64,000 nucleotides of DNA, taken from assembly GCA_963082975.1 (NCBI GenBank), contig OY720349.1, forward strand, positions 67,950,501 to 68,014,500, given 5' to 3'. The notes beneath the pieces were generated by a model that worked only from the letters and a program-made list of their open reading frames with translations, made no database searches and was not told the origin of the DNA. Made by a program: the position numbers and the translations under genes. This document shows positions 419 through 61,699 of the stretch, one piece after another. The first letter of the stretch is position 1. Each line of letters starts with the position of its first letter. This DNA comes from Labia minor (taxonomy: Eukaryota; Arthropoda; Insecta; Dermaptera; Spongiphoridae).

Positions 419-607
419 TTATTTAAAAATATTGTTATATACTGATTTTAAATGGTTATTCATGCTGCCCTTTTGATGAAATCGTTTTTTACATATACAT
501 AATATAATATATCTACGCGTATTTCGATTCAACACCGTTTATTATGTCGATGACCAACGTGATTGGTTTTATTTGCTCAAAATTCACTCAAAAGTTCATA
601 ATATAGA
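419..607 (-). pseudogene. lola: Decayed lola-type zinc-finger exon (type A)
   Basis: On the minus strand a pyrimidine-rich stretch ending in CCAG (at 608-611) is followed by 189 bases that align with the type-A lola exons at 9244 and 13391. The latter is 188 bases, so the net difference is one base. The second finger half reads KKRFHQKGSMNNHLKSVY, matching the HQKGNLNKH part of the live exons, and then reaches a stop at 419-421. The part before it keeps a recognisable KTNHVGHRH and GVESKY, but in shifted frames. The shared phase-1 frame hits a stop six codons in. The first CxxC is gone, the second has collapsed to CxC, and the final zinc-binding His is Tyr. The acceptor still looks usable. 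I read this as a dead member of the exon array that has lost its zinc ligands. Confidence 0.72.
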
Positions 608-2167
608 CTGGAAAAAATAAATCATATATTATAGTAACAAAATTGATTTTTTTTTATAATAAAATATCTGTATTTAAACAAATGATGTTTTTTTTTTTTT
701 TTTTTTTAAACATATTTTAACCTACCTCTACTTTATAATTAATTATGGAATTTATATACATTATAATATTATTATATATTATTTATAAACGTATTGTGAT
801 AATATATAATTCTATTTACATCAAAATTCACATAAACTTCATGGAAAAATAATTAATTATATTAGTCCCTTCATAAATTGAGACTAAAATCATATATACA
901 TTATAATAAAAAAAAATATAATCCAAAAGATATCTTTATAATATGATAAACATTTTAAAATTAATGTAATTTTTATAAATATAAATTAAATATACTTTTC
1001 AATTTTCAATTAACATTTGATAAATTTCTTGACCACACCTTTTTTAACAAAAGGAACAAATGCGATTAAAAAAATAATGTTTAACTAAAATTTTAACCTG
1101 AATAAAAGTGAAAATAATATGATTTTTTTTAATTACTTGTATTAATATAAAATCTAAGTGAAAAAAATATTTTTATTTTTTTTTTATTTTTATTTTTTTT
1201 TTTTTTTTTTTTTTTTTTGCAAAATTTACATGAAATTAATTCGTTTTTATGAATTATCATTATTTCATTATTATCATATGAAAAAAAGTATAATATACTA
1301 TTATAATTCTTAAAATAAATTAAACAAAAATCCATTATATAAAAAAAATATTTTTTTAGAAATAATTATTTTTCAAAAGTATAATGTTCCTCATAATTGA
1401 CACTCATTATAAACTTAACTTATTATTTTTATTCAAATAATATACACACATATATATGTGTTACCTATATTATAACAAACTTCCTTAAATGGGATGCATC
1501 ACCAATTTTCAGTCGTTGAAGAAAGGGAGGTGGTTTCAGAAGAAATAATAATAATAATATTCTTTGAAGACCTCCCACCCTTTGTAAAGGGTGAAATTTG
1601 GTGGCGCATTCAATGTGACGTCGATACCATAATTAAGAATTAACTTTAAATATTATATACATTATATAATATAATATAACAATAGTATTCTTTGTTTAAT
1701 CATTTCTAAATAAAAAGAATATGATATCTCATTTTTAAGGGCAAGAACTTTCGAGTTCCATAGAGCCACAGGTAGATATATGTAGATATATGATTTTAAT
1801 TTGAAAAAAATCAATCATTAATGTATATTTAGAAGGAAAACTGCTTATATTCAAACAGAATAGTGCTAAGATTGTAAGAATCTTCTTAGAAATCGTTTTT
1901 TACATAACTATATGATATTTTTCATGGACAGAATAAATTTACTTGAAAAAAAAATACTATTCTTAAAATTTAAATACAAAAATAATAATTTTATTTATAA
2001 TCTAATTTGAAAATATTTCTTTAATTTGTATATGTATAAAAAAGAAAATAATAATAGGTGTACTAATAAATATTTATATTATATTTAAATAATAACTGAT
2101 TTCAGATATAAATATTCCTATTTTATATTTATTTCTTTAAAATTAAGTTAAATAAATATATTTATAT
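608..2167. other. Intron between exons; contains one foldback
   Basis: Mostly A+T-rich with T runs near 690 and 1195-1218. The one richer patch is the quasi-palindrome at about 1483-1620, listed separately. No zinc-finger codons seen. Confidence 0.5.
1483..1620. repeat. Quasi-palindromic, GC-richer foldback (possible MITE relic)
   Basis: The left arm contains GGGATGCATCACCAATTTTC and AAAGGGAGGTGG. The right arm contains CCTCCCACCCTTT and AAATTTGGTGGCGCATTC, so the two halves are imperfect reverse complements around an ATA-rich centre. The patch stands out from its AT-rich surroundings. No clear target duplication was found, so the class is unknown. Confidence 0.4.
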
Positions 2168-2349
2168 TTATATAACTTTATGAACACATTTTATATGTTT
2201 TTTCAAATGATCTTTTCGAAAAAATTGGTAGTGGCATATATAACATTCGAACTTGCGCTCCTTGATGCAATCTTCCCGAATGTGACGAAGAAGATGGAAA
2301 CGATGTTTATAAGTTCGAAAGCAATTTATACAGAAAAATCGAAGTTCCT
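2168..2349 (-). CDS. lola: Lola-type alternative 3' exon, two zinc fingers (type B)
   Basis: This is the most distal open exon. It has no methionine, so it is found only by translating from the acceptor (minus-strand TTTTTTGTAG, AG at 2351-2350). Two bases complete a split codon and 59 codons follow to TAA at 2168-2170. The 60-residue tail holds a C2HC finger (residues 7-28, ligands C7, C10, H23, C28, core YKHRFHLLRHIREDC) and a C2H2 finger (36-57, C36, C39, H52, H57, core FFRKDHLKKH). Every zinc ligand is intact. The type-B signature REDCIKERKF places it with the exons at 6354, 11061, 15498 and 22026. In the mature protein it would replace the other tails and set DNA specificity behind the shared BTB domain. 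The role comes from the family; the exon structure is read from the sequence. Confidence 0.85.
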
Positions 2350-4394
2350 CTACAAAAAATAAAAATCCAAAACATATTTAAAAACAATAAAAAAATAAAA
2401 CAATTAATACAATGGATAATTTATGTCTGGTTAAATAGGATAATAGGGATTTATTATTAATGAATAATTAGTGATAATAACAAATATTTTGATTAAAAGA
2501 CAAAAATAATAGTAATAGTATATAACGTATAATAAAAAACATAAACACAATTAAAATGTAAATTAGCTGGAGTGTCTCCACTCGACTATCTCGCAATTTG
2601 AATTGGATTAATTATCATATATATTATATTTAAATTAAATTTAATTAATTATAAATTAAAAATTAAAATTAATAAATAATATTTATTAAACCAGTGCGTG
2701 TTTGGCTCTTTGTTGATGGCACCACGTCACGTGTTGGTGCGTGAGATTTGCAGTGTTAAAAAATTAATTCTGGTACTTTCAGCTATTCAATCAAGCTGAA
2801 ATTCTATATATAGCAGTTTTATACAATTATTAATCATGTGAAAAATTATCAAACATATACCTATATTATTGCGGTCAGTTTAGAGGAAAATGGTAGGTAA
2901 TGACCCTCTTCTGGTTGAGCTACATTTCTCAAAAGTTGATAGAAAACTACGAATTTTGAATAATACCCATGTACCAAATTTCATGCTTCTAGTTCAAATG
3001 GTTTTTGCGTCATCTTGTCTACATGCACACACACACACACACACATACACAGAAATTTTTCTCAACCTTAGTGAAAATGATTCAGGATCCTTCAAAACGT
3101 ATAAAAACATCAATATATATCTTGACAACGAAAATTTTCGTGATCGCAATACTATCTCTGGCGAGATAGTAAAAATATAACTTGAAATCACTTGAAATAA
3201 TTTAAATTAATTAATTTAAATAAAATTATTATTGTAAGATGAAATGACAAAGGTTAATAAAAATAATAAGATAAAAAATATTAAATAAGAATTACTTCCT
3301 TTTGTGTTCATTGTAAGATATCTTCTTTAAATTGCTTTTATTAATAATTGAAATTGTTCGAATCATATTTTAAAAATAAATGAATATCATTCAAGTGAGA
3401 AAAGAAAAGAAATGAATGTACCCCTCAAAAAACATGATATACAATTTTATTCCTTAGTCAACAATCGCTATTTTGTTCACTCATTCATACATATATTTTC
3501 AAGTATACTTAAATAACATTCTTAAACTATCATAAATGAATTTTGATTAACTTCAAAATACCAAAAAATAAGATTTCATTTTATTATTTGATTAACAATA
3601 AATTTCTTCAAAGGCAAGTCAATGAAGGTAAGGTGTCACTTAAATATAACATAACAATATATTTGTTTGTGCATGAGCAGGGGCCTTGGATGACTGAGAT
3701 TAATCAGGCAATAAAATACATTCATGTTGATATTTGAAGCAAAACAATAAATTTTTCTAATTTGCTAATTTTCTTCTTTCTTGGTCTTCTGAAAAATATT
3801 TTAATCTTCTCTGGTATATTTATTTCATATCGCCTTAATTCGCCACTGCTTATTACAATAAACATATATAAAGATGTACATATACTCGTATCTGTATAAA
3901 AAAATTTCCAATAATTTGACAAGATAATATTTATTTATTTATTTAATCGTAAAAATAATTCAATGATTTTGGAAATAATTTTCCTTTGATTAATATTTAT
4001 TTAAAAAAAATCTGGAAAAAATGATTCCTAATAATAAAATGATATTCATTTTTATTAAAGATAGTAAAAAAGAGGTAAAAATAAATAAATCTATAATATT
4101 TTTTTATAATTATTTAATTAATTAAAGTTTGGTGTATTAAAATAGGAATTTTTCATTATTTTTTTTAGTTACAGGGTAGAAGTGATTAAGTCTCAATTTA
4201 ACAAGTCAATGAAATAATCAACATTTTCCCTTTGGTTATTCATCAAGTAAATATAATATACTTACTATATATTATATATATTATATATAACAAATTTAAA
4301 AAAATTACATTCAATGAACATTTGTCATTTTAATGGTTTTTCACAATAATAAATATTTATATACTATCTTTGTGACATAGATATTAAGAAAATA
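2350..4394. other. Intron; holds repeat family A copy 1
   Basis: Apart from the repeat at 2562-3170 and a CA microsatellite at 3027-3050 within it, only AT-rich sequence. Open frames at 3543-3922 show low-complexity residues and no zinc-finger pattern, so I regard them as chance. Confidence 0.5.
2562..3170 (+). repeat. Repeat family A, copy 1 (unclassified, about 600 bp)
   Basis: Starts TTAGCTGGAGTGTCTCCACT and ends at ATCTCTGGCGAGATAGT. It is nearly collinear with the copies at 7739-8325 and 30688-31325. A 10-base inverted match (ACTATCTCGC near the start, GCGAGATAGT at the end) suggests a foldback or DNA element. A CA microsatellite sits at the same internal place in all long copies. An open frame inside (NDPLLVELHFSKVDRK) is partly conserved between copies, but is short and not a recognised protein. 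Confidence 0.75.
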
Positions 4395-4612
4395 TTAAGA
4401 GGTGACTTTATGAACAAATCGTAAATGTGCTTTCATGTTTCCTTTTCGATGAAATCTTCTTTTACAAATATCACATCTAAATTTTGGATCTACACCACAT
4501 TCATATCGCAGATGATGAAGCATATGTGTCCGATGTTTGTAGGTCTTTCTACATCGTGGACATGCATGTCGCATATTTGCAGGATAATTGAAATGTCCAA
4601 ACACATCCATAA
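4395..4612 (-). CDS. lola: Lola-type alternative 3' exon, two zinc fingers (type A)
   Basis: The acceptor is GTTTTGTCTGTAG on the minus strand (AG at 4614-4613). The exon contributes a split codon plus 71 codons. The 72-residue tail begins with a 16-residue leader (MDVFGHFNYPANMRHA) that is not zinc finger. A C2HC finger (CPRCRKTYKHRTHMLHHL, then YEC) and a C2H2 finger (CDICKRRFHRKGNMKAH, then VH) follow. All eight zinc ligands are present. The linker YECGVDPKF is the type-A signature, and RFHRKGN matches the HQKGN class of exons at 9244 and 13391. The ATG inside is not a start: the frame is open back to the acceptor, and the protein start lies in the shared exons outside the window. Confidence 0.88.
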
Positions 4613-6353
4613 CTACAGACAAAACATAAAACAGAACAAAAAAAAATGTTGTATTAGAAAGATTAGATTAAATATTAAATATCGATTTGTACATTTAAAT
4701 AGCTACAAAAATAAATAAATAAATAAAATAATGTAATATATGTATTTACCATCACGAAAAGTGATTTTTAATTTAAATAAAAAAATATATGGCACTTGTT
4801 TTATTTAAATTACTAAATTAATACCCTTCATTAATATCTCTAATTGATTAATTAGTAAAATAACTGACAAAATTTAGATCATATAATTAAGAATGTTAAC
4901 CATCAATCATATTTCAAGAGTATTATTATAATTTTCCAATTCTTTACCTGGGAAATCCAAACAAATTTGATTAATTTTTTATGATAAATATTTTGTTATG
5001 ACATGATAATTTATGCTGAATGAAATTTCTATTTATGAATTTCTCTAATAGATTGTGCTTGGAGGGGGGGGGGGGGGGGGAAAGTGAAACAAATGGATGA
5101 GAAAAAGCTAATTATAAGTTTGTTTGTTTACGGGGAAACCAATTGAAAAAAAAGATCTTTTCTAGGACCCAAATAATGGCAGATTTGATGGAAGTAACTT
5201 AGGTTAGGGCGGTTAAAAATTATCGAGTGCAGAAACACCACGAAGACATTTATCTTGAATTTACTTGTTTGATAGCAGTGAAAAAAAAGCGACATTACAA
5301 TATCATATGTTATTTAATGGACTCGACACGAGTTTAACCCTTTTTAATATTAAAAATTATGTATATGTTACATAGGGGGGGGGGGGGGCGGGGGAGGAAT
5401 AAGAATTTTAGAAGGGATTAGGTGGGGCATTGTACAATTTGAAGGTTAGGAAACACTGCTCTAGTCTATTCTATGTATTATAAGCATATCCCTTATTATA
5501 TATATATATATTTTCAAAACAAACTTTTTGTGGATTTCTATACTTGACAAAATGAACAAAGATCGATGTATGGAATAAAGTAGGGGAAGAACAATTTAAG
5601 ATAGGAATTAGATAAAAGATCAGGAAAAGATAGGAAATTATAAATAAGATTAATAGTTAGAATTAATTATTAATAAAACATTACTATGCATGAAATTAAA
5701 TAAGTCGTAGATTTTGTCCAACATACATCAGTTACAGTTTGTGACTGAGAGCGGTCACCATCTGAAACTTTCACTGATCACCATTCTTCGGTATATTAAT
5801 AAAATTTAGAGATGTGGTAGTTAGATAAAATACTATAAATCGGTTAATGTGATCCAAGAGCAAGATTGTAAAATAAATAAATATAAACGATAATTTTGAA
5901 TAAATCCAAACAAATGATAAGAAAAAAATTAACAAAAAAAAAATACTAAAATGATATTAATTATATTATTGTTTGAAGGTACAATAAATTGAATTAATAT
6001 AAAATTAAGTAATTTATATTTTAATTTGATCCACGAAATATTACATAATTATAGTGATTTGTTGTTTGTTATTAATTACATACACACTAAGGCTGTTTAA
6101 TTCAGAATCATCTAGAGACAATTTGCTTAAATGTAGAAAGAAAGTAGTGATCAAATATAAATAAATATTTTGTTTTAATATAGAAATTTGACATTTATTA
6201 AAGAAATGACAATTATACTTATATATTAATAAATAAATATTATTGAAATTATAAAATTTGATAATAATAAAATGTAGAAAATGACAAAAAATATAAATAA
6301 ATTTTATTATAGTTGTGAAATATGTAAAATATATACTTGGTTTAAATTAATCC
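4613..6353. other. Intron; holds a degenerate hAT-like element
   Basis: Contains the G-run-bearing element at 5051-5458. The rest is AT-rich with nothing I can assign. Confidence 0.5.
5051..5458. mobile_element. Diverged hAT-like MITE with two poly-G tracts
   Basis: The right end, read inward from 5458, is CAGTGTTTCCTAACCTTC, a typical hAT terminal motif. The left end is weak (GATTGTGCTTGG). Flanking 8-mers CTCTAATA (5043-5050) and CTCTAGTC (5459-5466) agree at 6 of 8 positions, as an aged 8-bp hAT target duplication would. Two long G runs (about 5065-5080 and 5376-5390) lie near both ends. No transposase frame remains. Confidence 0.55.
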
Positions 6354-6556
6354 TTATTTATCGTGATTAAATAGTATATGCCTTTCCATATAATATTTTC
6401 TGGCAAATTTTTTATTACATAAATGACATTGAAATTCCCCTTTAAGTCCACATTCTTCACTAAGATGTCGAAGTAAATTCTCACGATGTTTGTATGATCG
6501 TGGACATTGTAGACATCCAAAATGTGGCTCTATTGTGAATGAGTTCCAGTGTTTAG
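6354..6556 (-). CDS. lola: Lola-type alternative 3' exon, two zinc fingers (type B)
   Basis: The acceptor TTTGTATTCCGTAG (AG at 6558-6557) opens on AKHWNSFTIEPHFG, a short leader, then two fingers ending in FNHDK and the stop. Finger one is C2HC (CLQCPRSYKHRENLLRHL, then EEC). Finger two is C2H2 (CHLCNKKFARKYYMERH, then NH). The second finger's recognition region RKYYMERH is almost the same as RKYHMERH in the exon at 11061, and the linker EECGLKGEF matches EECGKEGKF there, so these two are close paralogues although a type-A exon lies between them. Total contribution is 67 residues. All zinc ligands are intact. Confidence 0.88.
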
Positions 6557-9243
6557 CTACGGAATACAAATAATCAAATATCATTTTAAAAATTAAATAA
6601 AAAAATACAATTTATAATTACAAAAAAAAAAAATATTAATCGAATTTGTCAAGAACATTATAATAGGATATTAGTCAGATAAAAAATTATTTATTCTTAT
6701 CATTCATTTAGAACTTTAAAAATATAATAACAATAGTGTATTTGTGAAAACAATAAAAGGATTTTAGGCCTAAATACATAAATAAATGAAAATCATTGAA
6801 ATAAAAACGTATGTCACTGATTTCATGAATATATTATAACATTTAATTTAATAATAATAATAATAATAAATTTGAAGATTAAACATTTAATAAAAATAGT
6901 TGCAATGATGTACTTAATTAAATATCTATTTTCATAAATAAAAAAAAATATTAGAATAAATAAAACAATTTTTTTTTATTGACAAGTCATTATACATAGC
7001 ACCACATTTTGAAAGAATTTTTTATTATACATATTACAAAATATAACATTAATATAATAGAAGATATAAAAATAATTTAAAAGTTTAGAGTTTAGATAAG
7101 TAGTCGCTTTTTCTAAATTTTATTCATAAAAACCATAAAATTTATATATTAGAACAAAACTTTCGAGAAAAATTTAAAATTACAAAAAAAAAAACATTGG
7201 TGATTTCGTTTTTTATGATATTCGTTGTGAAGATAATAATGCATAGAATAACGAAATTTGCTCCTGAATGCCGTATATTTTCTGCATTAGATCGACGAAC
7301 TAATAAAATAAATAAAAAAAAAAATAATTAGGTAATAAGCAAATGATAGGAAATAATAAATAATAGAATGGAAAACACTGGTAAGTAAAAGAATTGAAAA
7401 TATACATATATAAAAATTGCATGAATAGAATTTGAATAGGAAATGGAAGATGGAAGTTAAATATAAAAAAAACCTCTCCATATATATTAAATGAAAAATT
7501 GTTGAAATTATAAAATTATTAATTTTGAAGATTCTTGTATCAATATACAAAAAAATTAAAAAAAATGTAAAATAAAATAAGCAAAAATAAAATAATTTAT
7601 ATATTGGGGTTAGGTTATGAAAATAACTAAAATAATATATGTATTTTAAAAGTATTTTTATTTACATACCCATAAAAATAAGTTTCCATAAGTATTGATA
7701 ATAATTAAATAAAACAATTTGTAGGTATTTTAAAATAAAATTAGCTGGAGTGTCTCCACTCGACTATCTCGCAATTTGAATTGAATTAATTAACAGTTAT
7801 ATTATATTTAAATTAAATTTAATTAATTATAAATTATAAATAATAAATATTTAACCAGCGCATGTTTGGCTTTTTGTTGATGCCACCTCGTCACATGTTG
7901 GCGCGTGAGATTTGCAGTGTTAAAAAATTAATTCTGGTAATTTCAGCTATTCAATCAAGCTGAAATTCTATATATAGCAGTTTTATACAATTATTAATCA
8001 TGTGAAAAATTATCAAACATATATCTTTATTTTTACGGTCACTTTAGAGGAAAAAAATCAAAACGTTGTAAGTAATGACCCTCTTCCGGTTGAACTACAT
8101 TTCTCAAAAGTTGATAGAAAACTAAGAATTTTGAATAATGATCATGTACCAAATTTCATCATTCTAGCTCAAACCGTTTTTGCGTAATCTTGGTTACATA
8201 CATACACACACACACATACACACAGACATTTTTCTCAACCTTAGTGAAAATGATTCAGGAACCTTCAAAACGTATAAAAACATCAAAATCTCAACATCGA
8301 AAATTTTCGTGATCGCAATACTAGTAAAAAAAAGAACGAAAATAGTTTTATAAATTCAAAACAAAATTAAATCTCAAAACCAATTTAAGTACTTTTTAGC
8401 AAATATATTAATTAATCTGATAATTATTTTAATTAATAAAATTGTTTTTTTTTCTTCTAATTCTTAAAATATTAAAATAAAGCTTAAATTTAATTTTGAA
8501 AAATTAAAAATATAAAATTAAATTAAATTTCAATAAAAATTTTGTCACAAAAATATTCATAATTTTTGTTTTTCATTTTTTGTATCACTTCAATATGAGT
8601 AATTAGATTGATTAGATTCAATTTGTTGTTTTATATTCTATATATATATATTCATGAAAGTAAACAATAATTTATTCACTAAATATTATTTACAGATAAT
8701 TTAATTCTGTACATTTTTTTTGCACAGTACTATGTATGTATATTCAATCATTCTTATAGTTAGATAAAAATTTATCATCAAACAAATATACGAATTAAGT
8801 TTTACATAACCCTTGCACTAGTTATGGAATTTTTAATTAATTGAATGAAATCGATATTTTTAAATATATAACACTATTAATAAATAAAAATTTACAATAT
8901 AATTTAATAACAAAAAAAAAATATAAATGATTAATTTTAAAATTGTAATTATGGACATTAAGTATAAATTTATATACAGAATTTATATATAATTTAGAAA
9001 GAATGGAAAACAGTGTTAAATATTGTTGAAATTTAACTTTTATTATGAATAATTCAAAAAGATTTTTTTAAGTAAGTAATATTCCTTTTCATAATTATAT
9101 CCTAAAATCACTCGTGAAAAGATGGATTTATTTTCTAGTTAATAAATAATTTTCAACCAAAGATCTTATATACAATATTTAAAATTCTCAAAAAACACCA
9201 ATCAATATAGCAAATTTGAATTTTTAGACTTGTATTATAGAAG
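6557..9243. other. Intron; holds repeat family A copy 2
   Basis: Repeat A occupies 7739-8325. A weak zinc-finger-like stretch on the minus strand near 7195-7300 (KFRYSMHYYLHNEYH) is out of the shared splice frame and is treated as unproven. The remainder is AT-rich. Confidence 0.45.
7739..8325 (+). repeat. Repeat family A, copy 2
   Basis: Collinear with copy 1 from TTAGCTGGAGTGTCTCC through the CACA microsatellite to GATCGCAATACTAGT. The last bases lack the ATCTCTGGCGAGAT found in copy 1, so the 3' end has a small deletion. Confidence 0.75.
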
Positions 9244-9437
9244 TTAGGAGGGAATTAAAGTAATTCTATGTACAATTCGACAATGTGTATTCAAATTGCT
9301 CTTTTGATGAAATCTTCGTTGACAGATGAAACAAGAAAACTGAGGTTCAATACCGCATTCCCAACGAATATGCCGATACCAGTGGGATTTATTTTTATAT
9401 GATCGTGAACATTGAGGACATTCAAAGCGCATTGGTC
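9244..9437 (-). CDS. lola: Lola-type alternative 3' exon, two zinc fingers (type A)
   Basis: Compact exon with almost no leader. After the acceptor (minus strand GTTTCAG, AG at 9439-9438) the frame reads a split Gly codon, then PMRFECPQC, straight into the C2HC finger (core YKNKSHWYRHIRWEC). The C2H2 finger follows (CFICQRRFHQKSNLNTHCRIVH), with a short tail RITLIPS. It yields 64 residues with all zinc ligands intact. RHIRWECGIEPQF and QRRFHQKSN are nearly shared with the exon at 13391 (RHIRWECGVEPQF, QRRFHQKGN), making these the closest type-A pair. The dead exon at 419-607 belongs to the same subgroup. Confidence 0.88.
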
Positions 9438-11060
9438 CTGAAACAATTAAAACAGATTATTAATAAAAATATAGCGAAAATGCATTATTAATATTTATTG
9501 CATAAAAAATACTAGTAAAAATAATGTGAAAATTGTAACAAATGATTTTAAAACAATAAAATAAAATAAAAAATAAATGAATACATAAATTTTTAAAATT
9601 TACTAATGAATATAAGAAGAAAATAAGAAACGATATTTAATCTAATTGAATTTTGAGTTGTTTTGGGTAAAAATCATACTTATTACTTTGGATTTTTGAT
9701 TAAGAACAATTTAAATAGAAATTAAGAAAAAAAAACAAATCTGAGTCAATGTTTAAAAAAAATTTACAACTATTAATGATTTTAAGTTTTAAATTTACCC
9801 CTAGATAGATAAATATATATACTTAAATCAGTTAGATTAAAATTTTACAAATCTAATAAATATAAATAAAAAAAATCTTAGATATCAATAAACCTGATAG
9901 GTATTTTATAAGTAGTACAAAAAAAGAAAAAAAAAATAATTATAGATCAACAAAACATAGCACCTCACTACAATACAAATTGTAACAAATCCTATTTTAG
10001 TTATTATTGTAGATACATATTTAAATATAAATATAAATTTCTAGATTCTTACCTCTTTTTTATATAAACACACTTAATCAATAAAATACCAAACTATTAA
10101 CGTTATCTTCTTATATAATATATACTCTTCTTATTTTTTTAATTGCAATCCTCCAGGTATTCCCCCTTGCCATTTTAAATCTTTATTTACAATATAATCT
10201 TTCTCTTCCTAATAAGTTCAATGACTTAAAATCCATTTTAATTAAATTGATTAAAAATTAACAAATTATAATTAATTACTTGAATAATATGTACGAGTAT
10301 ATCCATATGAATAAGATTAAATTTAAATACTTAATGAAAATAATATGAATTATATATTAAAATATATTTTATTAAAATTATAAATAATTTACAAAATGTA
10401 ACAATGTTATTTATTTATTATGACATAGACTCATGATTTTTTTAAAGTTACCCCTAATCATATTTTAACATTCATATCACTTCAATTTAAAATCTTTTAT
10501 ATTAATTTTGGCGAGAACAAAATTACCATTTATTTTTTAAATCAAAAAAATAAATATATAAATACTAAAATATATTAATAAAAAATCAACTTTCTATTTA
10601 AATTAAATAATGTATAATAACTACTTTTCTCAAATAAACTTAAAAAAATCAAAACTGTTTATGATAAAAAACTGAAAATTTAAAAATATTTTTTTTTCAA
10701 TGTTAGTATAGTTTTATAGTTTAAAGAAGTAATATCCCAGCGTCCATAATATTTATTTATTGTTTCCAATAAAAAAGTTAATATTTCCTATCTAAATTCA
10801 ATTTTTTTCTAATAATTTTAATTTTTCTCAACTGAACTTGAAAATAAAATTTTCAAAGTTGAAGAATAAGTATCTAAAGAAATAAATCAATAACAATAAC
10901 CAATTTTTTGTTTTATTAAATCTCAAAATCAGCAAGTTGAGAGTTGCCCCCCTCATCCTATATTCTATTATATTATATACATACATATATACTTCCCTAT
11001 CATCATCCCTCACTACGGACAAAAAAACAATTAATATAATTTTATTATGTTATTTCAAGA
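9438..11060. other. Intron, nothing recognised
   Basis: AT-rich throughout. The minus-strand frame at 10828-11022 has no motif and lies just downstream of the next exon's stop, in what would be its 3' untranslated region. Confidence 0.5.
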
Positions 11061-11293
11061 TCAAAATCTCCGCATTTTATGGACTCTTATAACATGCCTT
11101 TCCATATGATATTTTCGTGAGAATTTTCTCAAACAAATGAAGCATGGGAATTTTCCTTCTTTTCCACATTCTTCACGAAGATGACGGAGTAAATTGTATC
11201 GATGTTTGTACACATGGGTACAGCGTGGACAAGGATGTCGTTGTTCTGTCTCTGTCTCATTTCTTGTTAATTGATAATTATGCCATTGAGAAT
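11061..11293 (-). CDS. lola: Lola-type alternative 3' exon, two zinc fingers (type B)
   Basis: The acceptor AATTTCGTAG (AG at 11295-11294) leads into DSQWHNYQLTRNETETEQRH, a hydrophilic leader of about 20 residues, then CPRCTHVYKHRYNLLRHL with EEC (C2HC) and CFICLRKFSRKYHMERH with VH (C2H2). The tail is KMRRF. It adds 77 residues with all zinc ligands present. It pairs with the exon at 6354 through the RKYxMERH recognition region. A plus-strand frame overlapping this exon is its shadow. Confidence 0.9.
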
Positions 11294-13190: not shown

Positions 13191-13232
<42 letters not shown>

Positions 13233-13390
13233 ACCCTTCATAATAATAATAATAATAAAAAAAGAATTATAAAAAAAAAAAAATTATGAAATAATAAGTT
13301 ATTTTTCCTTATAGTATGTCGCCAGCATTTAATCAAAAGCAGGTGAAGATATTTTAAATATTTAAATATATTATTCTCTTTTATAATATA
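11294..13390. other. Intron, nothing recognised beyond homopolymers
   Basis: A short GC-richer patch at about 12240-12300 (GACGGACGGACAGAGG) is not assignable. A T run of about 40 bases lies at 13191-13231. No other structure seen. Confidence 0.5.
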
Positions 13391-13578
13391 TTAAGTAATT
13401 TTATGTACAAATCGGCAGTGTTTATTTAAATTGCCTTTTTGATGAAATCTTCGTTGACAGACAAAACATGCAAATTGAGGCTCTACTCCGCATTCCCATC
13501 TAATATGACGATGCAAATGGGCCTTATGTTGATAAGAGCGATAGCATTGGGGACATTGAAAACGTAGTTTTCCGTGTA
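13391..13578 (-). CDS. lola: Lola-type alternative 3' exon, two zinc fingers (type A)
   Basis: The exon has no methionine, so it appears only when read from the acceptor (minus strand TTTATGTTGCAG, AG at 13580-13579). The frame is a split Val codon, HGKLRF, then CPQCYRSYQHKAHLHRH, IRWEC (C2HC) and CFVCQRRFHQKGNLNKH, CRFVH (C2H2), ending KIT and TAA at 13391-13393. It gives 62 residues, among the shortest exons of the array. All zinc ligands are intact and substitutions relative to the exon at 9244 are mostly conservative, so it appears under constraint. The 188-base length matches the dead exon at 419-607 to within one base. Confidence 0.87.
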
Positions 13579-15497: not shown

Positions 15498-16222
15498 TTA
15501 CATATTTTTATGACTCAAAATATGAACTTTTAATATGTCTTTTCGAAAAAATTTTTTCAAACAGATAGAACATTGGAAATTTGGTTCACTTATACATTCT
15601 TCACGAAGATGACGTTTCAAATGTTTAAAAAGTTTATAAGTACGTGGGCAACGATGACAGGCGTGACGAGAATGTGTCGTTGAATTTAATTGTTTTTGTT
15701 GGGGAGGCTGTTCATTTGATTTTTCTTCTTGTTTTTGATTCAACTCTTGAACCAAGGTTTGATACAGATTTGTGTTAAAGTGTTGATCCGGATCTATACT
15801 CAGGTTTTGATCCAGATCCACACTCAGATTTTGATCCAGATCCACACTCAGGTTTTTATCTAGATCCACACTCAGATTTTGATCCAGATCCACACTCAGA
15901 TTTTGATCCAGATCCACACTCAGATTTTGATCCAGATCCACACTCAGATTTTGATCCAGATCTGCATTTAGGTTTTTATCTAAATCTGTATTTAGGTTTT
16001 TAACAAGATCTTCGTCTTTAAAATCTTGATCAGAATCCTGAATCATTTGTTGTTCAGTATCTTGAATTAAATCTAGATCTGAGTCTTGAATTAAATCTAG
16101 AACTGGTTGTTGAATTAATTGTAAATCGGAATGTTCTATTAATTGTAGATCTGGCTCCTCCATCAACTCTAGTTCCGGTTGTTGAATCTGCTCTAGAACT
16201 GGGAGTTGGTCCGGTATTTCAT
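15498..16222 (-). CDS. lola: Lola-type alternative 3' exon with expanded acidic repeat (type B)
   Basis: Longest exon of the array, adding 241 residues from the acceptor TTATTTAG (AG at 16224-16223). It opens with an acidic, Gln-rich leader (DEIPDQLPVLEQIQ...) containing a loose DLxLIQ repeat. About ten copies of an eight-residue unit follow (consensus DLDQNLSV, roughly residues 84-163), encoded by a 24-bp minisatellite at about 15780-16000. Then come a QKQ-rich spacer and the finger pair: C2HC (CHRCPRTYKLFKHLKRHL, EEC) and C2H2 (CSICLKKFFRKDILKVH, SH). The second finger ends H-x3-H instead of H-x4-H. All ligands are present. Such an acidic leader might act as an activation or interaction region, which is inference. 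Most repeat copies differ only at single residues, which suggests recent expansion and possible length polymorphism. Confidence 0.9.
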
Positions 16223-19200
16223 CTAAATAATAAAAAATAAGAAAAATGATTAGAATACATTGGATAACTTCTTAAAATAAAAACATGTATTCACAATATT
16301 TAATTTTCTGAAAGATAATATATATATATATACATATATGTATATAATAATATAATATAAATTAATATATTTTATAAAAAGCATTTAAAGATAAGTAAAA
16401 AAAAAAAAAAAAAATAAATTTGTGTTATAATAAATTTATGATGTCTTCCTAGTAGAAGTTATAGAATATACAGGTCATCTCTCCGTGGGGTTAAATTAAA
16501 TTTTCCTTATTTAATTATCTATTAACCATTAATGTTGTTTTTTCAGTTTTAACAATTAATTATATTCTCCCCTTGACTTCGAGAAACTGGTATTGATTTT
16601 GTGCATAATAGATCCACGCATTTTAAAAAATAATCGTACAAATTATCTTGCTTTATATTCATAATTGCTTGTAACAAAAAATAATAATCATATGTTCTAC
16701 AACTTGGTAAATTGATTTTTAAATAAAATGTAAAGTGAATACCTATACATGAATGAATATACTTATGTACTTTAAAAAAAAAAAAGAAAATTATATATTA
16801 AGTCTATAATTATTTTGTTTATATATAATAAATAATGGTTCATTTTAAGATCTTCAATAATAATAATAATAATAATTTGACTAATAAATTCCCAAATTCC
16901 TATTTTAAAAAATAGAATAACATATATTATTATTATTAAAACAACGAATATATGATTATTTAATTTATAAAATTTATTAATTAGTAAATAATAGAAGAGA
17001 TTAAGTTTGTAAATATAATAATTTATTATTATTTTCTTTTCTTTGAATATAATATTGATTTTTTTTTTCTATTTTTTAAGGTAAATACATAATTATGAGC
17101 ATATATTGAAAAGTATATTAACGATAAGGCATATCAGTCATTAAAATAAGCTGCACCCTCTAAGGTTTTTGAGGCCACAGTCTTAAAATTTATAAATAAA
17201 AAATTCATATTAATAATTAATAAATTAAAAAATCAATTTTAGAAATTAAATTTTATTTTATATAAGAATATGGAGCCTCAAAAAAAGTACAAATGCAATC
17301 CCAATGATATGATATAATTTTTAATATATTAAATAAATATAAAATTATGTGGCTATTTATGTACATTTTCTGTGTAACAAATTTAGATTAGATTAAATGT
17401 TATGAATCAGAGAAAAAAAATAGTAGTATCATCAATTTGTGAATTTATTCAATTAATTAACACAAATAATTATTAACATAATATATGTAAATATGTTTTA
17501 TTATATATACTACACAAACAATTTAAATACATTATAATATATATAAATTATAATATCATCTACATAATTACATTAAATAAATTCTTAATTTAAAAGAAAA
17601 AATAATATGATATAACTTTGGTATAAATATATGTAAATGATTAGAGTATACGTTGACAATGAAAAAAATACTTTAATAAATAAATATTATTTAATTTTTT
17701 TTTTAATATCTACGTATTGGTTAATAAGTTATTTTAACATTTATGAATTTATATTTTATACTTTATTTCTGAATTTCTGGTTATATTAAAAAATGATTTT
17801 TTTCGTTAATTCACATTAATGTTTGCTAAATATTTTATAAAAAGAAAAAATAGATTAAGATTCCATTATTTTTATTTGAATTTTTCCAGAAAAATAGTGT
17901 TTTTTTTTTTTCTTTTTGGTATTATAAAATCTTTTAGATAATTAAGAATATGTATTTAATTGGATTGTGTGATATTATTAAAGATAAATATGCAGTCTTT
18001 AATATTTGCACTGTTTAAAAATGTTATTTATTTAATAAAAAGATCTATGATCTACATATTTCTATTTAATGATTATTTATATTATGTATTAAAAAAAAAA
18101 GAGAATCATCATAGAAATATACCCTGTCTTTATAAGCATTATTTATTTATTTGTTCATCAAGAGATTTAGTTTATATTATAATTAAATAGAAATAAAAAA
18201 TAAATCATATGAAATTATTTTATTAAAAAAAAAAAAAAAAAAAAAATAATTTATATGTTTGTATGTATTTTAAAACATAGATATTATATATTAAATGTTA
18301 CAAACTAGAGCAGCGGTCGCCAAACTTTTTGACCTCACAGACCAGTTAATTCATAATTTAAATCCCGCGGACCACTAATAGGATTTTTTAAGAGTGTTAA
18401 ATATATTTATATTTATAAATAAAAATTGTGATCAAAGAACACATAAAATGTACCTAGTTAATAAAATGAAACTATTATCACGTATTGTTATGAATTGAAT
18501 CATGTTGTAATGCATCTTAAAACATAACTTAACTTAACATGATGAGTAAGTAAGTAAGTATATTCCACCAGCGAAATTTTCTTGCGGACCACCCACCACT
18601 TTGGCAACCGCTGTACTAGAGCATGAGAATAAGATATATATATAAATCATATATTTATTGGAGTATATGTTCAATATATCTTTGAATTAACTAATTTATT
18701 TGAATAAAGAATATATAAAGATTTTTTTGTAAATAATAGATTTAGATCTAAAAGGTATAAATATAAATTCGATTAAAGGTATATGATTATAATACATAAA
18801 TAATACAGCCTCTTTTGATTTTCTCTTAACATTCATATATTTTGGAAGATTGCGTTTTTATTTTTCTCACTTTTCAATGATATGTATTTTTAAGTATTCT
18901 TTATTAATTAGATATTCAAAACGTATTTATAGTTATCAACATTTAAATGATATTTTAAAATATAATTTTATTAAAATAATAATAATAAAATTATATTTTT
19001 TTAATACCTAATATCTTTATATAATTAATAAATTTATTGAATATTTAATTATATTATAATTTGATTTAATAAAATAATTTTTCTAAAGAATTTATCAATT
19101 GAAATATCAAATTAAATGCCAATATTCTAGTATCATTAGATTAGATTAGACAATGAGGACTAATTCCTAATTAAAAAAGTGCTTCAGGAAATTGTAATAA

Positions 19201-19757
19201 TAATATTAATAATAATAGTTGGATTTAAAAAAAATTTACAATGCTATTTTTGATATTTAATGGCAGAAAATATTGCATTGTATAGGACCCCCTTCATTTA
19301 TTTTAATTAAATAAAAAATCATAAAAGTCATAAAGCTACAGTTGTCCGAGATCTCAATAAAAAATACTATTAATAAAATTAATTATTATAATTCTTTAAT
19401 TATAGAGAGATGGTGGATTCCCATATTACTCTCTTTTCCAATTACTTGCAAAAATTTAAAAATATCGTACTTTTATTATCATAAGATAAACTTTACGCTT
19501 CCGGTCGTTAAAATAATTTTAATTTTATTAAATTTTTTTACTAGATTATTCCGAAAATTTAATTAGTTTTAGCTAAAGATTATAATAATTTTATTATTGA
19601 ATCTTATTTTCTCTCTTTTATACATATAAAACAAGCAGTGTTATATTTATATAAATATATTAAAGAAATATACATAATTGTATCAATAAATTATTAAATT
19701 TGACCTCATACAAAACGAAAACGTTAAATAATATTTATTTTGAAGATGATAGAGATA
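16223..19757. other. Long intron; holds one hAT-type MITE
   Basis: The only assignable item is the MITE at 18311-18613. The open frames at 17960-18190 (plus) and 19342-19566 (plus) are rich in Ile, Tyr, Lys and Asn and have no motif. Confidence 0.5.
18311..18613. mobile_element. hAT-type MITE, 303 bp, with target duplication
   Basis: Terminal inverted repeats read CAGCGGTCGCCAAACTTT from the left and CAGCGGTTGCCAAAGTGG from the right. Flanking 8-mers AACTAGAG (18303-18310) and TACTAGAG (18614-18621) agree at 7 of 8 positions. The subterminal GCGGACCAC occurs at both ends. No coding capacity, so it is a non-autonomous element that would need a hAT transposase in trans. Confidence 0.82.
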
Positions 19758-20035
19758 TCATAACTGATAGATTTCTGAAATATTTGTTATATTCGTTGAT
19801 TCCGTTTTCAAGAAGATTTCTCGATGTTTGTGTCGGACATGAGCATTGAGATTATCCCTTCTAGCAATACGTATGGGACAAAAGGGACATTGAAATCGGG
19901 GATAGATCCCGCATTCATTTTTTAAATGCCGATTCAAATGTTTCCGTTGTTTATAAGTTCTTCCACATTGTGGACAGGGATGTCGATGTTGATGGCCTGC
20001 TGCAGCCATTAAGGACTCGAGGGGCAGATATAAAC
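19758..20035 (-). CDS. lola: Lola-type alternative 3' exon, two zinc fingers (A-like)
   Basis: The acceptor is TTTGTTTTGGTCTTTAG (AG at 20037-20036). The frame gives GLYLPLESLMAAAGHQHRH, a mildly hydrophobic leader, then CPQCGRTYKQRKHLNRH with ECG (C2HC) and CPFCPIRIARRDNLNAH with KH (C2H2). A 20-residue Ser/Thr/Ile-rich tail follows (REIFLKTESTNITNISEIYQL), unusual among the short exons. Total 92 residues. The linker ECGIYPRF is type A, but the second finger has IARRDN in place of HQKGN, so it is a divergent A. The methionine further upstream lies in intron sequence and is not a start. Confidence 0.88.
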
Positions 20036-22025
20036 CTAAAGACCAAAACAAATGAAATGTTGAAAAAGGTAAAGGATTCGGGAATTTGGGACGTTTTTAT
20101 GGGAGAGAGTTTTAAGAAAGGGAATGTGGTGAGATGGTTAGAATATGTCGTGCAAATGGAGAAACTAATTTGAGAAATTTCCATCTTTTAATTTCCATCA
20201 AATAAATAATAATTAAATAAAAAAAAAAAAAAACGAGGTGCAAGTTATTATAATTCCAATTACCATGCAGTGAAGGCAACATTGTCTGTTAACGCTAATC
20301 ACACAAACGAAAATATTGAAATACTTCCCAAAATTCATATTATTCTCCTGTGAATGAATTATTTTAGAAAATAATTGTTGAAAATAAATAAACTAATCAC
20401 TTGAAACGGATTGTAATTTTTTGCACCATATTCAGGTAAGATTATAGATTTTAGTGGTCATTATGGGGTCTAAGCTTATTTTAGTCAGGCTTCGCAAATA
20501 TTTAGGAAAATTATTATATTAAATTATCAAGTTTTTACTTTGTATAAATTAATAAACTGTTTGATAAAAGTTGGATTCTTCGTCCTTAATTGGATTATAT
20601 ATATATATATATATATATGTAAAAAGCACATAATTATATCAATTGGGTATCAGAGCGGAATTATCTGTGGATGAGAGATGTACAACAATTTATAATATAT
20701 TAATTTTACACTTCCCCTTCCCATGAGGAATATCTAAATAAATATATTTTTTCTGATGATATATATATATATATATATATATATAGTATCTGTTAATATA
20801 GTGATCCATATAATTACCTTTTTACCATTTTAATCATTTAATCATTTTAATCATTGAAATAAGCATTTAATGAATATATGTGATTTATGAGTCATGAGGC
20901 CATACTAAAATATATTTGTTTTTATATAATATATCTACCAATATCTATATATATATATATATATATAGGTATATACAATATACATAGATAGATAGATAGA
21001 TAAATTAATTTACAAAAAAATCAAAAATATTAATAGATCGAGGAGAAATATTGTAATTTACTTTTATCACAAAATGAAATACTGAAATTAATAAGTTATA
21101 TTTTAATCAATTTTTGGTAATTATTTTAAAAAAGTCAATTATAAATTATACTAAAAACCTTTATTTATTTATAAGAAATGTTTAAAGTTTAAAGGATTAC
21201 TGGTAAACTAATACTTCTTTATTGTTTTAATAATTAATTAATAGAAAGAGTCTCCCTTCGCGTTTCATTCCTCTCGCTAACGTTTATTTATTTTGGACGA
21301 AAAATTTTTTTATAAAAATAAATCTTCTACTGTTAACTGATATTTATTTAGGATTATTTTTTTAATCAATAATATAATAGAGAGTAAAAAAATATAAATT
21401 TGATCAGAAACGTAAACAAGGACATTTTGTTACTTTTCTAGGTTCTTACCATTAATATCTCTAAACACTTAGTAACTAGGGTTATTAGCTTTTAGATCCT
21501 CTTATCAAATAACTTTTTAATAAATCTGAATAGCAATTATACATAACGATTTAATATGTTTTTTTTTCTAAGATTTTAACGATTGAAAATTTGCCCTAAA
21601 ATTAAATTTTACAATACATATTTAAATGAATGTTAACAATTTAAATGAAAAGATTTTTTAATTATTTTTTATTTAAATATCATTTTTAATAAATTTGTAA
21701 ATTTATTGAATAGATATTTGATAGTTATTTTCAGTTAAGGTAGAAAACAGATTTAATACAAAATGACAAATAAATATTAAATATATTATTAAGCTGCAAA
21801 ACCTCATCAAAGAGATTAAAAAAATTAATTTAAACAAGCAAGGAGTAGAGTTCATTTGTAATAATAATAATAATAATAATATATACAATTTATAATTCTT
21901 TTTCCAAAAAATAGATCATACAAGTATTTTAATATAAATTTATATATTATTATATTCATACTATTGTTTATTAAACAAATAAATAATATTTATAACATAG
22001 AAAATAATATTTAATTTTATAAAAA
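20036..22025. other. Intron, TA and TAGA microsatellites
   Basis: TA repeats at about 20600-20618, 20758-20785 and 20945-20967, then a GATA run to 21002. The 140 bases next to the acceptor (20040-20175) are pyrimidine-rich on the transcribed strand and open in two frames, which explains overlapping spurious frames. No gene seen. Confidence 0.5.
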
Positions 22026-22249
22026 TTATTTAATATTATGTACAAATAAACGATGTCTATTTAAATGATCTTTTCGATTGAATCTCCTTCTACAAATTTC
22101 ACATCCGAAGTTTTGTTTTGCACCACATTCCTCACGCATATGCCGTAATAAATTATGACGATGTTTGTATTTTCGTGGACATTGTGGGCACGCATGAGTG
22201 GAATTTTCAAAATTAAATCCAATCCATTGAAGACTAGGCAGATCGTAAA
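22026..22249 (-). CDS. lola: Lola-type alternative 3' exon, two zinc fingers (type B)
   Basis: The acceptor TTTGTGTCGTAG (AG at 22251-22250) opens on VYDLPSLQWIGFNFENSTHA, then CPQCPRKYKHRHNLLRHM with EEC (C2HC) and CEICRRRFNRKDHLNRH with VH (C2H2), ending NIK. It adds 74 residues with all zinc ligands intact. The linker EECGAKQNF and RKDHLNRH mark it as type B, closest in the second finger to the exon at 2168 (RKDHLKKH). Residues upstream of VYDL in the longer open frame are intronic: they are hydrophobic and encoded by the pyrimidine-rich tract. Confidence 0.9.
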
Positions 22250-22950
22250 CTACGACACAAATAAAAAAAAACAAAACAAACATAACATTTGAATTTAAGA
22301 AGTAAATTAATGAACACATTTCAAAATTTTCAAAATATATAAGGGTGTCTGTAAACAATTATTATTAAAGAAAAATTGAATGATAAAAATATATTAAATA
22401 AGAAAAAATACAATTAAATATTGTAGAATTCTTAGTCTCTTAAGTAGCAGATGCGTGTGGATCTTCAAGTAATTCGAATAAAATCCATATGTTTTGAAAT
22501 AAACATATATAGATATACATTTAAATAAAAAATTATAATTATAAACATTTTTTATTTGAATTTCAAGTGAATTAAAAGAAAATCAATAGTTAGATAAATA
22601 ATTTATTATTTATTTTAATAATATCATCATATACATCACTACAAACACAATTGCTATTTTAAAATGATTGAAAATCATTGAAAATCTTAAAATATCATGC
22701 TGTAGTTGTAGTAAAACACTAACAACTCTCTCTCTCTCTCTCTCTTACACTGATAAAGGGCTTGATAAAAGGTTCTTTTTCATTCTTATAAGGATTAACT
22801 CAAGGATTGAAATATTGAACTTAATTTTTTAAATCAGTAAAAAACTATTAGACAGTTCTAGAACTACTTCATTTTAAATTAATTAAAAAATAAATCAATC
22901 TAACTTAATATGACAAATACATGATTTTCATTGATTCTCCAGAAATAACG

Positions 22951-22981
<31 letters not shown>

Positions 22982-23789
22982 GATTATTTACAAATATATT
23001 TAACAAATAAAACAATACTTAAATTTTTATATGAACTTATAATAAAAAATTCAGAGTTTGACAAGAATGTTGAATATTAAAAATATAATAATAGAAACAT
23101 AGGAACACTTCAAATAAAATAATGATCACAGATAAAAGTTGATAAAAGGCCTAAATAAAATTATAAAATTTAATAAATTGATTAATTTTTAGGCTAGCTC
23201 TGATAAACTATTGCATATTTCTGTTTTTGTTTTACAATATTATTTATTTACATTACTTTAATAAAATGTTGATAATTTACAAAATTATGAGATAAAAACT
23301 AAAAATAAAGATAATCATGCATAAAATAATTAGAAATTTAATTTAATAATAATTTAATATAATAATACTCTTATATAGTATTTTCATAATATATATATAT
23401 ATATATATTTTATTTTATGTCATATTTCTTTTACTCATTTTATAAAATAAATAGAAAAAAATGAGAAAATTTCTGGTATAAAATTTTATTTATATTATAA
23501 TAATTAATAAATTATTGTTATAGAGCCTAGAATTTTACAATTTGCTAGTTACTAAGCAAAACTAGATAGCATTAAGAATCTTTGAAATTCATTTATTCCT
23601 AAACTATAAAATACTACTGGAATTATTATAACTAAATTTAAAATTAAATAAGTATTTATTTTACATATGTTTATAATTATATAAGAGAATATAAATAAGA
23701 TCTATTATTATTATAGAGAGAATATCTGAATATTATCTACTACTAGGTTAAATGTGTACCAGTAGTTGACCACAAATATTTTTGATTAA

Positions 23790-24277
23790 CCCTTTGGGTA
23801 CATTTGACGGCTCACGCTCGTCATGCGCAAATTTTGGCGTAATAACATTTGACGAGTCCGACTCGTCATTTCAAATAACGCCAACAGAGTCCAAACAACA
23901 CCCTACAAAAAGATGCCGAGTTTGTTATAAAAACAAAATTAGAAGTGAAACTACCTGGCAGTGCAAACAATGCCAAGTACCTCTGCATTTACCAACATGT
24001 TTCGAAAAATATCACACTTTGCAAAATTATTAGTAATTTTCTTTTTGATATATTTAGTTGAAAGTTGAAAACTATTTGTTATTATTTTTGTTTGTTTTAT
24101 TTATCATTATTATTCTGTAATTATTATAAACTTATATCTTATTTAAACTATGTATTAAATTGAAATAAACAATTTGTTACATACAAAATATTGCATTATC
24201 ATACATCATTCAGATAGCAACAAATTAAATACGTTTCAGATGCATGATACTCTTTGAATAATTCAGTACCCAAAGGG
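23790..24277 (+). mobile_element. piggyBac deletion derivative with TTAA target sites
   Basis: The element is bounded by TTAA at 23786-23789 and 24278-24281, with inverted termini CCCTTTGGGTAC and GTACCCAAAGGG. TTAA duplication and a CCC terminus are hallmarks of piggyBac transposons. Only the extreme 5' end and the C-terminal coding part remain, joined by an internal deletion. The 5' end carries two subterminal palindromic units (CATTTGACGGCTCACGCTCG and TGACGAGTCCGACTCGTCA) that could be transposase-binding sites, which is inference. Confidence 0.88.
23885..24033 (+). pseudogene. C-terminal zinc-binding tail of a piggyBac transposase
   Basis: The frame reads SKQHPTKRCRVCYKNKIRS..., then CKQCQVPLHLPTCFEKYHT, and stops at 24033. 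The arrangement CxxC...CxxCxxxLxxxxCFxxYH is the cysteine-rich domain that closes piggyBac transposases and helps bind terminal repeats. The catalytic RNase H-like domain is missing, so it cannot be active. It is not part of the surrounding gene and lies on the opposite strand. Confidence 0.85.
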
Positions 24278-24357
24278 TTAACTAAGTAATTATAAAATGA
24301 AGTAAAATAAAGAAATTATAAAAACAAAAAAATATTTAGTTAAATCAAATCGATGAT

Positions 24358-24845
24358 TTAAAACTCATTTGAATGTGATTGATCTAGTTGAAAAGAGTTA
24401 TCTATTTCAATATTTCTATTATCATTTGAGTCTATTTTAGGATCAATTCCATGTCGTCTTTTGATATGATCAAATAAATTACCTTTCTGTTTAGATCTTT
24501 TAGGACAATAAGGACATCGAAATTGGGGATCAACACCACACTCGTATCTTAAATGAAACATCATTGTGTTTTTATACTGATAAGATCGAGTACATTTCGG
24601 GCATTTAAATACATTTAAAGAATCTTTGGACTTGTGATATTGTGAAATGATATGACATTTAAAGTCTTCTTCTGTTTCAAAAGCAGCATTACATGGTATA
24701 CATCGTTTGTCAAAAAGAGTTTTCGAATAGATTTTATTTGGTTTTAGCATGGAAAAATTTGGAGAGGCGGAGTCCATCTCAGAAGAAAATTGCTGAACGG
24801 CACTTTCACTTCCACTTCGATTGTCATCAGATTCAGAAAAAATGT
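24358..24845 (-). CDS. lola: Lola-type alternative 3' exon with extra N-terminal finger (type A)
   Basis: The acceptor AAATTTTTTTCAG (AG at 24847-24846) opens on DIFSESDDNRSGSESAVQQF, an acidic Ser-rich leader continuing well upstream of the first internal ATG. A lone finger comes first, CIPCNAAFETEEDFKCHIISQYH (C-x2-C-x12-H-x5-H). The usual pair follows: C2HC (CPKCTRSYQYKNTMMFHL, YEC) and C2H2 (CPYCPKRSKQKGNLFDH, RH). A 30-residue Asp/Asn/Ser-rich tail ends SHSNEF. It adds 162 residues. The linker YECGVDPQF and KQKGN are type A. It marks the change from the short two-finger exons distally to the longer multi-finger exons proximally. Confidence 0.9.
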
Positions 24846-28226: not shown

Positions 28227-28516
28227 TTAAGGTGGACTGCATTTTTTCGTTAAATGCAATAATAAAGAACGTTTCGATCGATAAACACGATAACATATTT
28301 GACATACAAAATCGGGTTGAATTTTAATATGTCGACTATTGATATGGCTTTTCAATAATCCTTTAGTATTGCATCGATGATCACAATATATACAAGCAAA
28401 TGGTCGATTTTTGCCGCATTGATAGCGTGAATGGTGGTATAATGAGCCACGGTTCTTGAAATTTTTCCCACATTTGTGACATATATGTGCGGATTCATTG
28501 ATTTTCAGATATCCAC
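28227..28516 (-). CDS. lola: Lola-type alternative 3' exon with three fingers
   Basis: The acceptor is TTTTTTTATTTCCAG (AG at 28518-28517). The frame is GGYLKINESAHI, then CHKCGKNFKNRGSLYHH with YQC (C2HC), CIYCDHRCNTKGLLKSH with RH (C2H2), and a third CQICYRVYRSKRSLLLH ending KKC (C2HC), then SPP and the stop. It gives 96 residues. The third, C-terminal C2HC half-pair with no C2H2 partner is unusual in the array and may be what remains of a four-finger ancestor. The linker YQCGKNRPF resembles YNCGNKRPF in the exon at 33917, so these two form a third subgroup. The upstream part of the longer open frame is TA-repeat intron. Confidence 0.87.
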
Positions 28517-33916: not shown

Positions 33917-34107
33917 TTAATTCCAAACCATATTTATAGTATGTTTTTTCTTAATATGTACCCTTATTAAGTCTTTTGTATTACTTCGATATTCGCAATA
34001 AGTACATACAAAAGGACGTTTGTTGCCACAATTATAACGTTTATGATGTTGTAATGAATTTATAGTCTTGAACAATTTTCCACAAGGTTCACAAAATATT
34101 CTATTAT
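33917..34107 (-). CDS. lola: Lola-type alternative 3' exon, two zinc fingers (CGNKRPF subgroup)
   Basis: The acceptor is CAATTTATTTTTCAG (AG at 34109-34108). The short frame DNRIF leads directly into CEPCGKLFKTINSLQHH with YNC (C2HC) and CTYCEYRSNTKDLIRVH with KH (C2H2), then TINMVWN. It adds 63 residues with all zinc ligands intact. The linker YNCGNKRPF and CTYCEYRSNTK resemble the first two fingers of the exon at 28227 and the first unit of the four-finger exons further upstream (for example CDYCEYRSKWK at 46255). So it looks like a first unit that lost, or never had, the second pair. Confidence 0.87.
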
Positions 34108-61606: not shown

Positions 61607-61699
61607 TTTATGGAGTAATTTATTAACATTGAACTACAATAATATAAATATAATATAAATATAATATAAATATAACGAATTATTATTTACTAGCTATGT

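Follow-up and report, generated by a model that had tools for sequence, protein, structure and literature searches.

The window analysed here, a 64-kb stretch on chromosome 5 of the earwig Labia minor (Dermaptera; genome 604 Mb; C6:67950501-68014500), appears to belong to the 3' exon array of lola (longitudinals lacking), an identity suggested by the architecture of the locus together with the kind of BTB domain in its hub. We consider it quite probable that a lola array with a BTB hub has grown here by local tandem copying, that one kind of exon (B) came from A-like neighbours, and that the alternation of A and B exons along part of the window is a local by-product of this history. The giant array in an earwig is a stronger result than the alternation. 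Throughout, exons are named by their start positions, with negative positions lying left of the window's first letter.

The Labia minor genome spans 604.50 Mb with a contig N50 of 2.4 Mb and 404 gaps, according to PMC11937785. We observed TTCGG repeats at the right end of C6; TTCGG is given as the Labia minor telomere motif, and chromosome 5 as telomeric only at its right end, in PMC11829193 (Table 1).

A BTB-coding hub lies about 0.29 Mb past the right end of the window on the same (minus) strand, with the halves of the BTB domain in two hub exons (C6:68301480-68301662 and C6:68300279-68300521, both minus; Pfam E 2.4e-29). The domain is putatively of the Tramtrack group, for which the motif FCLRWNNHQ is a signature, and the assignment of the array to lola assumes that a C2HC finger paired with a C2H2 finger is the typical lola tail. 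When we searched the whole genome with the hub BTB and scored 58 of 58 candidates, only the two hub exons and one frame-shifted copy exceeded 62% identity; that second copy (C6:39907217-39907536) is also intron-less. Among the PDB matches listed (the best 60 of 309 in one search and 3 of 3 in the other), none was named lola and only generic finger and BTB proteins appeared. Searches of two further contig collections, one of them viral, gave no useful relative of the exons, the viral set giving one partial match of 22 residues.

We read 234 kb directly (C6:67890501-68124500) and scanned its minus strand, which yielded 64 exon frames. In the last hub exon, a single codon base precedes GTAAG, so that its donor, near C6:68299488, is in phase 1, and the best-scoring acceptor fits the hub phase in 63 of the 64 exon ORFs, with two bases before the first codon completing the hub codon. 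The exception is -40264, where the in-phase acceptor ranks second. Our acceptor score is a simple pyrimidine count, which makes a single case weak evidence and the total not. Seventy C2HC+C2H2 modules were present in 63 of the 64 ORFs, the remaining one (120975) being without its last finger, and among the matches listed from a two-strand scan of 204 kb, the plus strand gave nothing beyond scattered finger matches of the kind expected by chance, the frames being at most 47 residues long.

Beyond this stretch, the array is far larger. Three whole-genome protein searches gave 139 minus-strand clusters, to which direct reading added 3 minus-strand places, and 26 further places lie on the plus strand, for a total of at least 168. 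Two of these, both minus, are relics, which leaves at least 166 (140 minus-strand places over 0.59 Mb and 26 plus-strand places), a lower bound because no search scored more than 150 candidates. The 168 places were seen at different depths: 66 lie in the stretch that was read, and the other 102 comprise 3 read fully, 15 seen as a finger pair only and 84 seen as matches alone. Each of the at least 140 minus-strand places would offer a zinc-finger tail, those that were read have a phase-1 acceptor, and the sequence predicts that every mRNA carries the BTB hub spliced to a single tail.

On the plus strand, the 26 places extend over C6:67393365-67503990. All three that we read fully encode the same finger type and have an acceptor available in the same phase. 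No BTB or hub match was found within 10 kb 5' of these plus-strand exons, and the whole-genome BTB search gave no BTB match inside the plus-strand block. The plus-strand tails may be trans-spliced as in mod(mdg4), may reflect a scaffolding inversion, or may be unused. In flies and Lepidoptera, mod(mdg4) combines a BTB hub with numerous alternative 3' exons, a part of which lie on the opposite strand and are attached by trans-splicing (PMC4667647). Its tails are mostly of the FLYWCH kind, whereas the earwig tails read on both strands are C2HC+C2H2 pairs.

Drosophila melanogaster lola has, like the earwig array, one Tramtrack-group BTB hub and many alternative 3' zinc-finger exons, although the earwig array holds about eight times as many exon places. 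In the fly, 17 of 20 isoforms have different C-terminal fingers and trans-splicing is named (PMC11426971), with evidence cited for one trans-spliced isoform (PMC4528330); the opposite-strand block and the A/B sub-array belong to the earwig and go unmentioned for fly lola in the accessible portions of these two papers. Hymenopteran lola is nearer in size. PMC5000498 describes more than 180 alternates across 350 kb in Nasonia vitripennis and 58 alternates across 200 kb in Apis mellifera, each with one hub exon and regular spacing, and states that no lola expansion of comparable size is seen in insects outside the Hymenoptera. The earwig array is giant like those of Nasonia and Apis, but its host is a dermapteran, and the median spacing of its minus-strand places is 3.3 kb, compared with 1.4 kb for hymenopteran lola in the same source. 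If the array is lola, as its architecture suggests, it would be hymenopteran-sized and the statement in PMC5000498 would not apply to every insect. A bolder reading, against which we lean somewhat, is that the earwig has a hymenopteran-scale lola with at least 166 tails, that its 26 opposite-strand tails, which lie about 0.8-0.9 Mb away from the one hub that is intact, are usable solely via trans-splicing, and that a giant lola is an old insect trait that was lost or shrunk in flies. Among the literature matches listed, in a coverage that mostly excludes subscription papers, no paper dealt with earwig lola or with alternating lola exon types.

Within the window, the sequence-only reading had described eleven consecutive lola-type exons in strict alternation of two types, A and B. 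We found all eleven at the positions claimed, on the minus strand; ten are intact last exons of the lola type and the eleventh is a relic. All ten intact positions are ORFs that encode a C2HC finger and then a C2H2 finger. The relic (431..499) is a second finger alone, without a first finger, recognised by profile match and translation; it had been taken for a dead A exon, and its score of 26.6 bits with the A-core profile versus 13.8 bits with the B profile bears this out. A exons lie at 4395..4612 (an ORF with linker ECGVDPKFRC, grouped with -1479 and -4552; 84/81), at 9244..9437 (an ORF with HIRWECGIEPQF and QKSN) and at 13391..13578 (an ORF with HIRWECGVEPQF, QKGN and a predicted acceptor). 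B exons lie at 2168..2349 (an ORF for a C2HC+C2H2 pair, with linker DCIKERKFEC and a predicted acceptor), 6354..6556 (an ORF with RKYYMERH), 11061..11293 (RKYHMERH, its predicted acceptor preceded by a weak pyrimidine tract), 15498..16222 (divergent) and 22026..22249 (RKDHLNRH). Exon 15498 has an in-frame 24-bp repeat upstream of its fingers and several candidate acceptors, and 22026 has a second in-phase acceptor further 5'. Two exons sit less easily in the scheme: 19758..20035, labelled A-like, belongs to another lineage and has its sister at -25.5 kb (99/93), and 24358..24845, labelled A, has an extra finger upstream and is unplaced, outside the A/B core.

The ORF scan found further lola-type exons in the rest of the window, all on the minus strand and each with a predicted acceptor. 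Those at 28227..28516 and 33917..34107 are followed by four-finger exons at 36144..36595, 40542..41008, 46255..46706, 49576..50054, 52783..53201, 56564..56961 and 58280..58677. In 40542 and 49576 the second finger pair is A-like, and in the tree 58280 is near kin of 56564. Polyadenylation signals are also present, and the AT-rich DNA probably makes such signals too frequent to be informative.

Trees upheld one of the two proposed exon classes and not the other. In a tree of all 70 finger-pair modules, the B exons 2168, 6354, 11061, 15498 and 22026 formed a clade with -8328, a B exon 8.3 kb left of the window (89/92), and 15498 grouped within it with 2168 (86/85). A 21-row tree recovered the B clade as well (87/84), and so did a quick tree (85 aLRT) to which 15 exons from other parts of the locus had been added because they matched an A or a B query strongly. 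A grouping of the five window B exons that leaves out the sixth was neither favoured nor rejected (p 0.22). For the five intact A exons, monophyly was rejected (AU p = 0.0098), and the 21-row tree spread the A-core exons across a weak fork (51/62). B is a clade, then, and A is not a class, with the reservation that modules of 56 columns leave many forks unsettled. The twelve A-core and B exons together form one group (91/88) that extends from -9964 to 22029, and since all twelve lie within about 32 kb, relatives are neighbours.

The two kinds of exon are also close to each other. The B exon -8328 has 61% identity to the A exon 4395 (dS 0.68), compared with 63% to its closest B, while 22026 has 65% identity to this B exon at -8.3 kb. 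A whole-genome search with 22026 placed five A exons of the cluster ahead of 15498 and 2168, both of them B exons, which came only 17th and 18th. The A/B contrast lies mainly in the second finger, where identity is 0.49 within B versus 0.40 between B and the A-core; for the first finger and linker, the corresponding values are 0.55 and 0.51. At helix positions -1, 2, 3 and 6 of this finger, five of six A-core exons carry N at position 3 and four of six carry Q at -1, whereas all six B exons carry R at -1 and none has N at position 3 (H in three; I, V and Y in one each). Neither residue at position 3 is unique to these exons, as N occurs there in 25 and H in 7 of the other 58 modules, and the helix of 19758 (R-D-N-A) is intermediate between the A and B kinds. 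By the usual finger recognition rules, A tails are predicted to favour A-rich triplets and B tails G-rich triplets. We propose that the array grew via local tandem exon copying and that the B exons had a single origin from A-like neighbours, chiefly through change of the second finger from a QKGN-like to an RKDH- or RKY-like helix.

A different origin of the two types, raised in the sequence-only reading, is that four-finger exons split into two-finger exons, their halves giving A and B. The second pairs of the four-finger exons 40542 and 49576 are indeed similar to A exons and are placed within or close to their group. However, the AU test rejected a clade joining B exons to the first pairs of four-finger exons (p = 0.034), and B exons instead group with the A-core and with some second finger pairs, so we find splitting scarcely credible.

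How far does the alternation extend? Inside the window it stands as an alternation of non-B and B over the ten intact exons, but it is not a property of the array, as it breaks immediately to the left, where the order is A (-1479), A (-4552), an A relic (about -7.3 kb), B (-8328) and A (-9964). This relic has weak profile scores but shares 82% DNA identity with the A exon -1479 over 89 bases. In transcript order from 24358, the run reads other, B, other, B, A, B, A, B, A, B, A-relic, A, A, A-relic, B, A. No B exon occurs among nine more exons left of -9964, nor among 41 exon frames read right of 24358 out to 171 kb, of which the tree included 40. In a label-free comparison, in which identity at odd lags was subtracted from that at even lags, the permutation p was 0.008 for the ten exons; over the 14 exons with 24358 and -9964 as their ends, it was 0.0355. 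None of the six B exons is adjacent to another within their own span, an outcome with a chance of 5/210 (0.024), or 35/495 (0.071) when two relics are counted as places. All these p values, including 0.008, are optimistic because the stretch was chosen for its alternation. The alternation is real within the window but is a local and minor feature.

Such a pattern could in principle be kept by selection, if unlike neighbours avoid unequal exchange or gene conversion, or if a splicing or chromatin rule favours them. Neighbours are indeed unlike over ten exons, with no adjacent B pair among the six. Yet sisters adjoin elsewhere in the array, at 28227/33917 (100/98), 149741/151897 (100/91), 128067/131337, -12381/-15389 (100/98) and 166024/168521 (98/85), and the A-core exons -1479 and -4552 adjoin just left of the window. 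These adjacent sister pairs point to no array-wide excess of unlike neighbours, and we regard such selection as very unlikely. Selection on the exons themselves is another matter: dN/dS is 0.10 for 13391/9244 and 0.29 for 11061/6354, which indicates purifying selection, and for -12381/-15389, at 0.55 (upper bound 1.52), selection is not evident.

The sequence-only reading had singled out two close pairs offset by two positions and suggested duplication of an A+B block. The pairs are as described: 13391/9244 (99/95) and 11061/6354 (95/85) are mutual nearest relatives, with dS of 1.26 and 1.25, respectively, and intervals running from about 0.6 to saturation. Given that both pairs are nearest kin two places apart with equal dS estimates, they fit duplication of one two-exon block (13391+11061 / 9244+6354). 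As a general rule, block duplication did not hold. For 22026 (judged by identity), 15498, 2168, 19758 and 4395, the closest kin are not paired block-wise, and the A and B identity matrices are incongruent: with each A paired to the B it lies upstream of, r was 0.37 (reached by 22 of 120 permutations), or 0.16 with a sixth pair (184 of 720), and with B upstream of A it was -0.71 for four pairs and -0.74 for five, in a test that has little power at four to six pairs. The tree check proposed for the general block model, that A and B should both be clades, came out for B (89/92) and against A (p 0.0098), so the model fails by the earlier reading's own criterion.

It could still be that the whole run arose by serial duplication of A+B blocks, with the signal later blurred by divergence and exon loss. 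In addition to the two offset pairs with their matching dS estimates, identity is higher at even than at odd lags (p 0.008), and the relics show that exon loss occurs. This account must contend with the incongruent matrices, low-powered as that comparison is, with the negative correlation in the opposite pairing, with the position of 19758 and 24358 outside the A-core and with the rejected A clade. In addition, not one of the relics that were found favours the B profile over the A profile, although the one at -29.5 kb is nearly tied. We therefore think serial block duplication unlikely. It is most likely that the alternation is a by-product of local history and no rule of the locus: the B/non-B alternation over about 22 kb would have come from local copying, including the copying of at least one A+B pair (13391+11061, 9244+6354). 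A pure by-product view must ascribe the nominally significant label-free p of 0.008 to the way in which the stretch was selected.

DNA outside the exons was uninformative about the units of duplication. Flanking similarity is lost even in the control pair 128067/131337, which matches over 197 bp at 80% without flanks, so duplication units are unreadable from the DNA. A 600-bp repeat occupies matching places between A and B exons (2551-3154 and 7730-8323), and we considered it as a block remnant. We rejected this candidate, as all 40 of the candidates that were scored, from an initial 8850, matched at near full length (the window copy included), with all seven large contigs represented; it is a dispersed repeat and is therefore uninformative on exon blocks.

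More than 160 interchangeable DNA-binding tails in one gene would be an unusual route to transcription-factor diversity. In the literature that we found, such scale is reported for wasps and bees alone, and the earwig case reopens the question of its ancestry among insects. The local A/B run shows how an array of this kind may grow, through small bursts of local copying together with change in one finger, and the opposite-strand block would make trans-splicing of lola directly testable.

We found at least 26 places with lola-type exons at C6:67393365-67503990 (chromosome 5), about 0.45-0.56 Mb to the left of the window. These exons lie on the plus strand, opposite to that of the hub, the shared BTB-coding 5' exons of lola. 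A BTB search covering this block and the 10 kb 5' of its exons returned no local match.

We also recovered further relics of exons in the array, on both sides of the window. Two relics to its left are A-type (window coordinates -16363..-16241 and -7375..-7215, negative values lying left of the window start), and another, at -29539..-29372, has nearly tied A and B profile scores. To the right, the relic at 81708-81862 has a broken frame.

Within the window, B exon 15498 carries in-frame 24-bp repeats (15783-16154): one array encodes about 7.5 copies of an eight-residue, DLDQNLSV-like unit, and a second has about 4 copies. A 600-bp repeat is present at 2551-3154 and 7730-8323 (~87% identity between copies), with a third, inverted copy near -11 kb; all 40 of the 40 scored candidates gave near-full-length matches, spread over all seven large contigs seen.

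A single 628-aa minus-strand frame (59750-61633) lies inside the exon array; it encodes a BED-like finger, and its match to the hAT dimerisation domain is weak and falls below cut-off. A plus-strand fragment with a transposase-type zinc finger (23770-24033; zf-Tnp_2, E 2.2e-7) is placed between exons 22026 and 24358.

About 9 kb from the lola hub, and in head-to-head orientation to it, lies a second BTB gene (C6:68310358-68313595, plus). Elsewhere on the chromosome, a BTB copy with 93% identity to that of lola (C6:39907217-39907536, minus) continues uninterrupted through the site where the hub has its intron and shifts frame afterward; this copy looks like a retrocopy.
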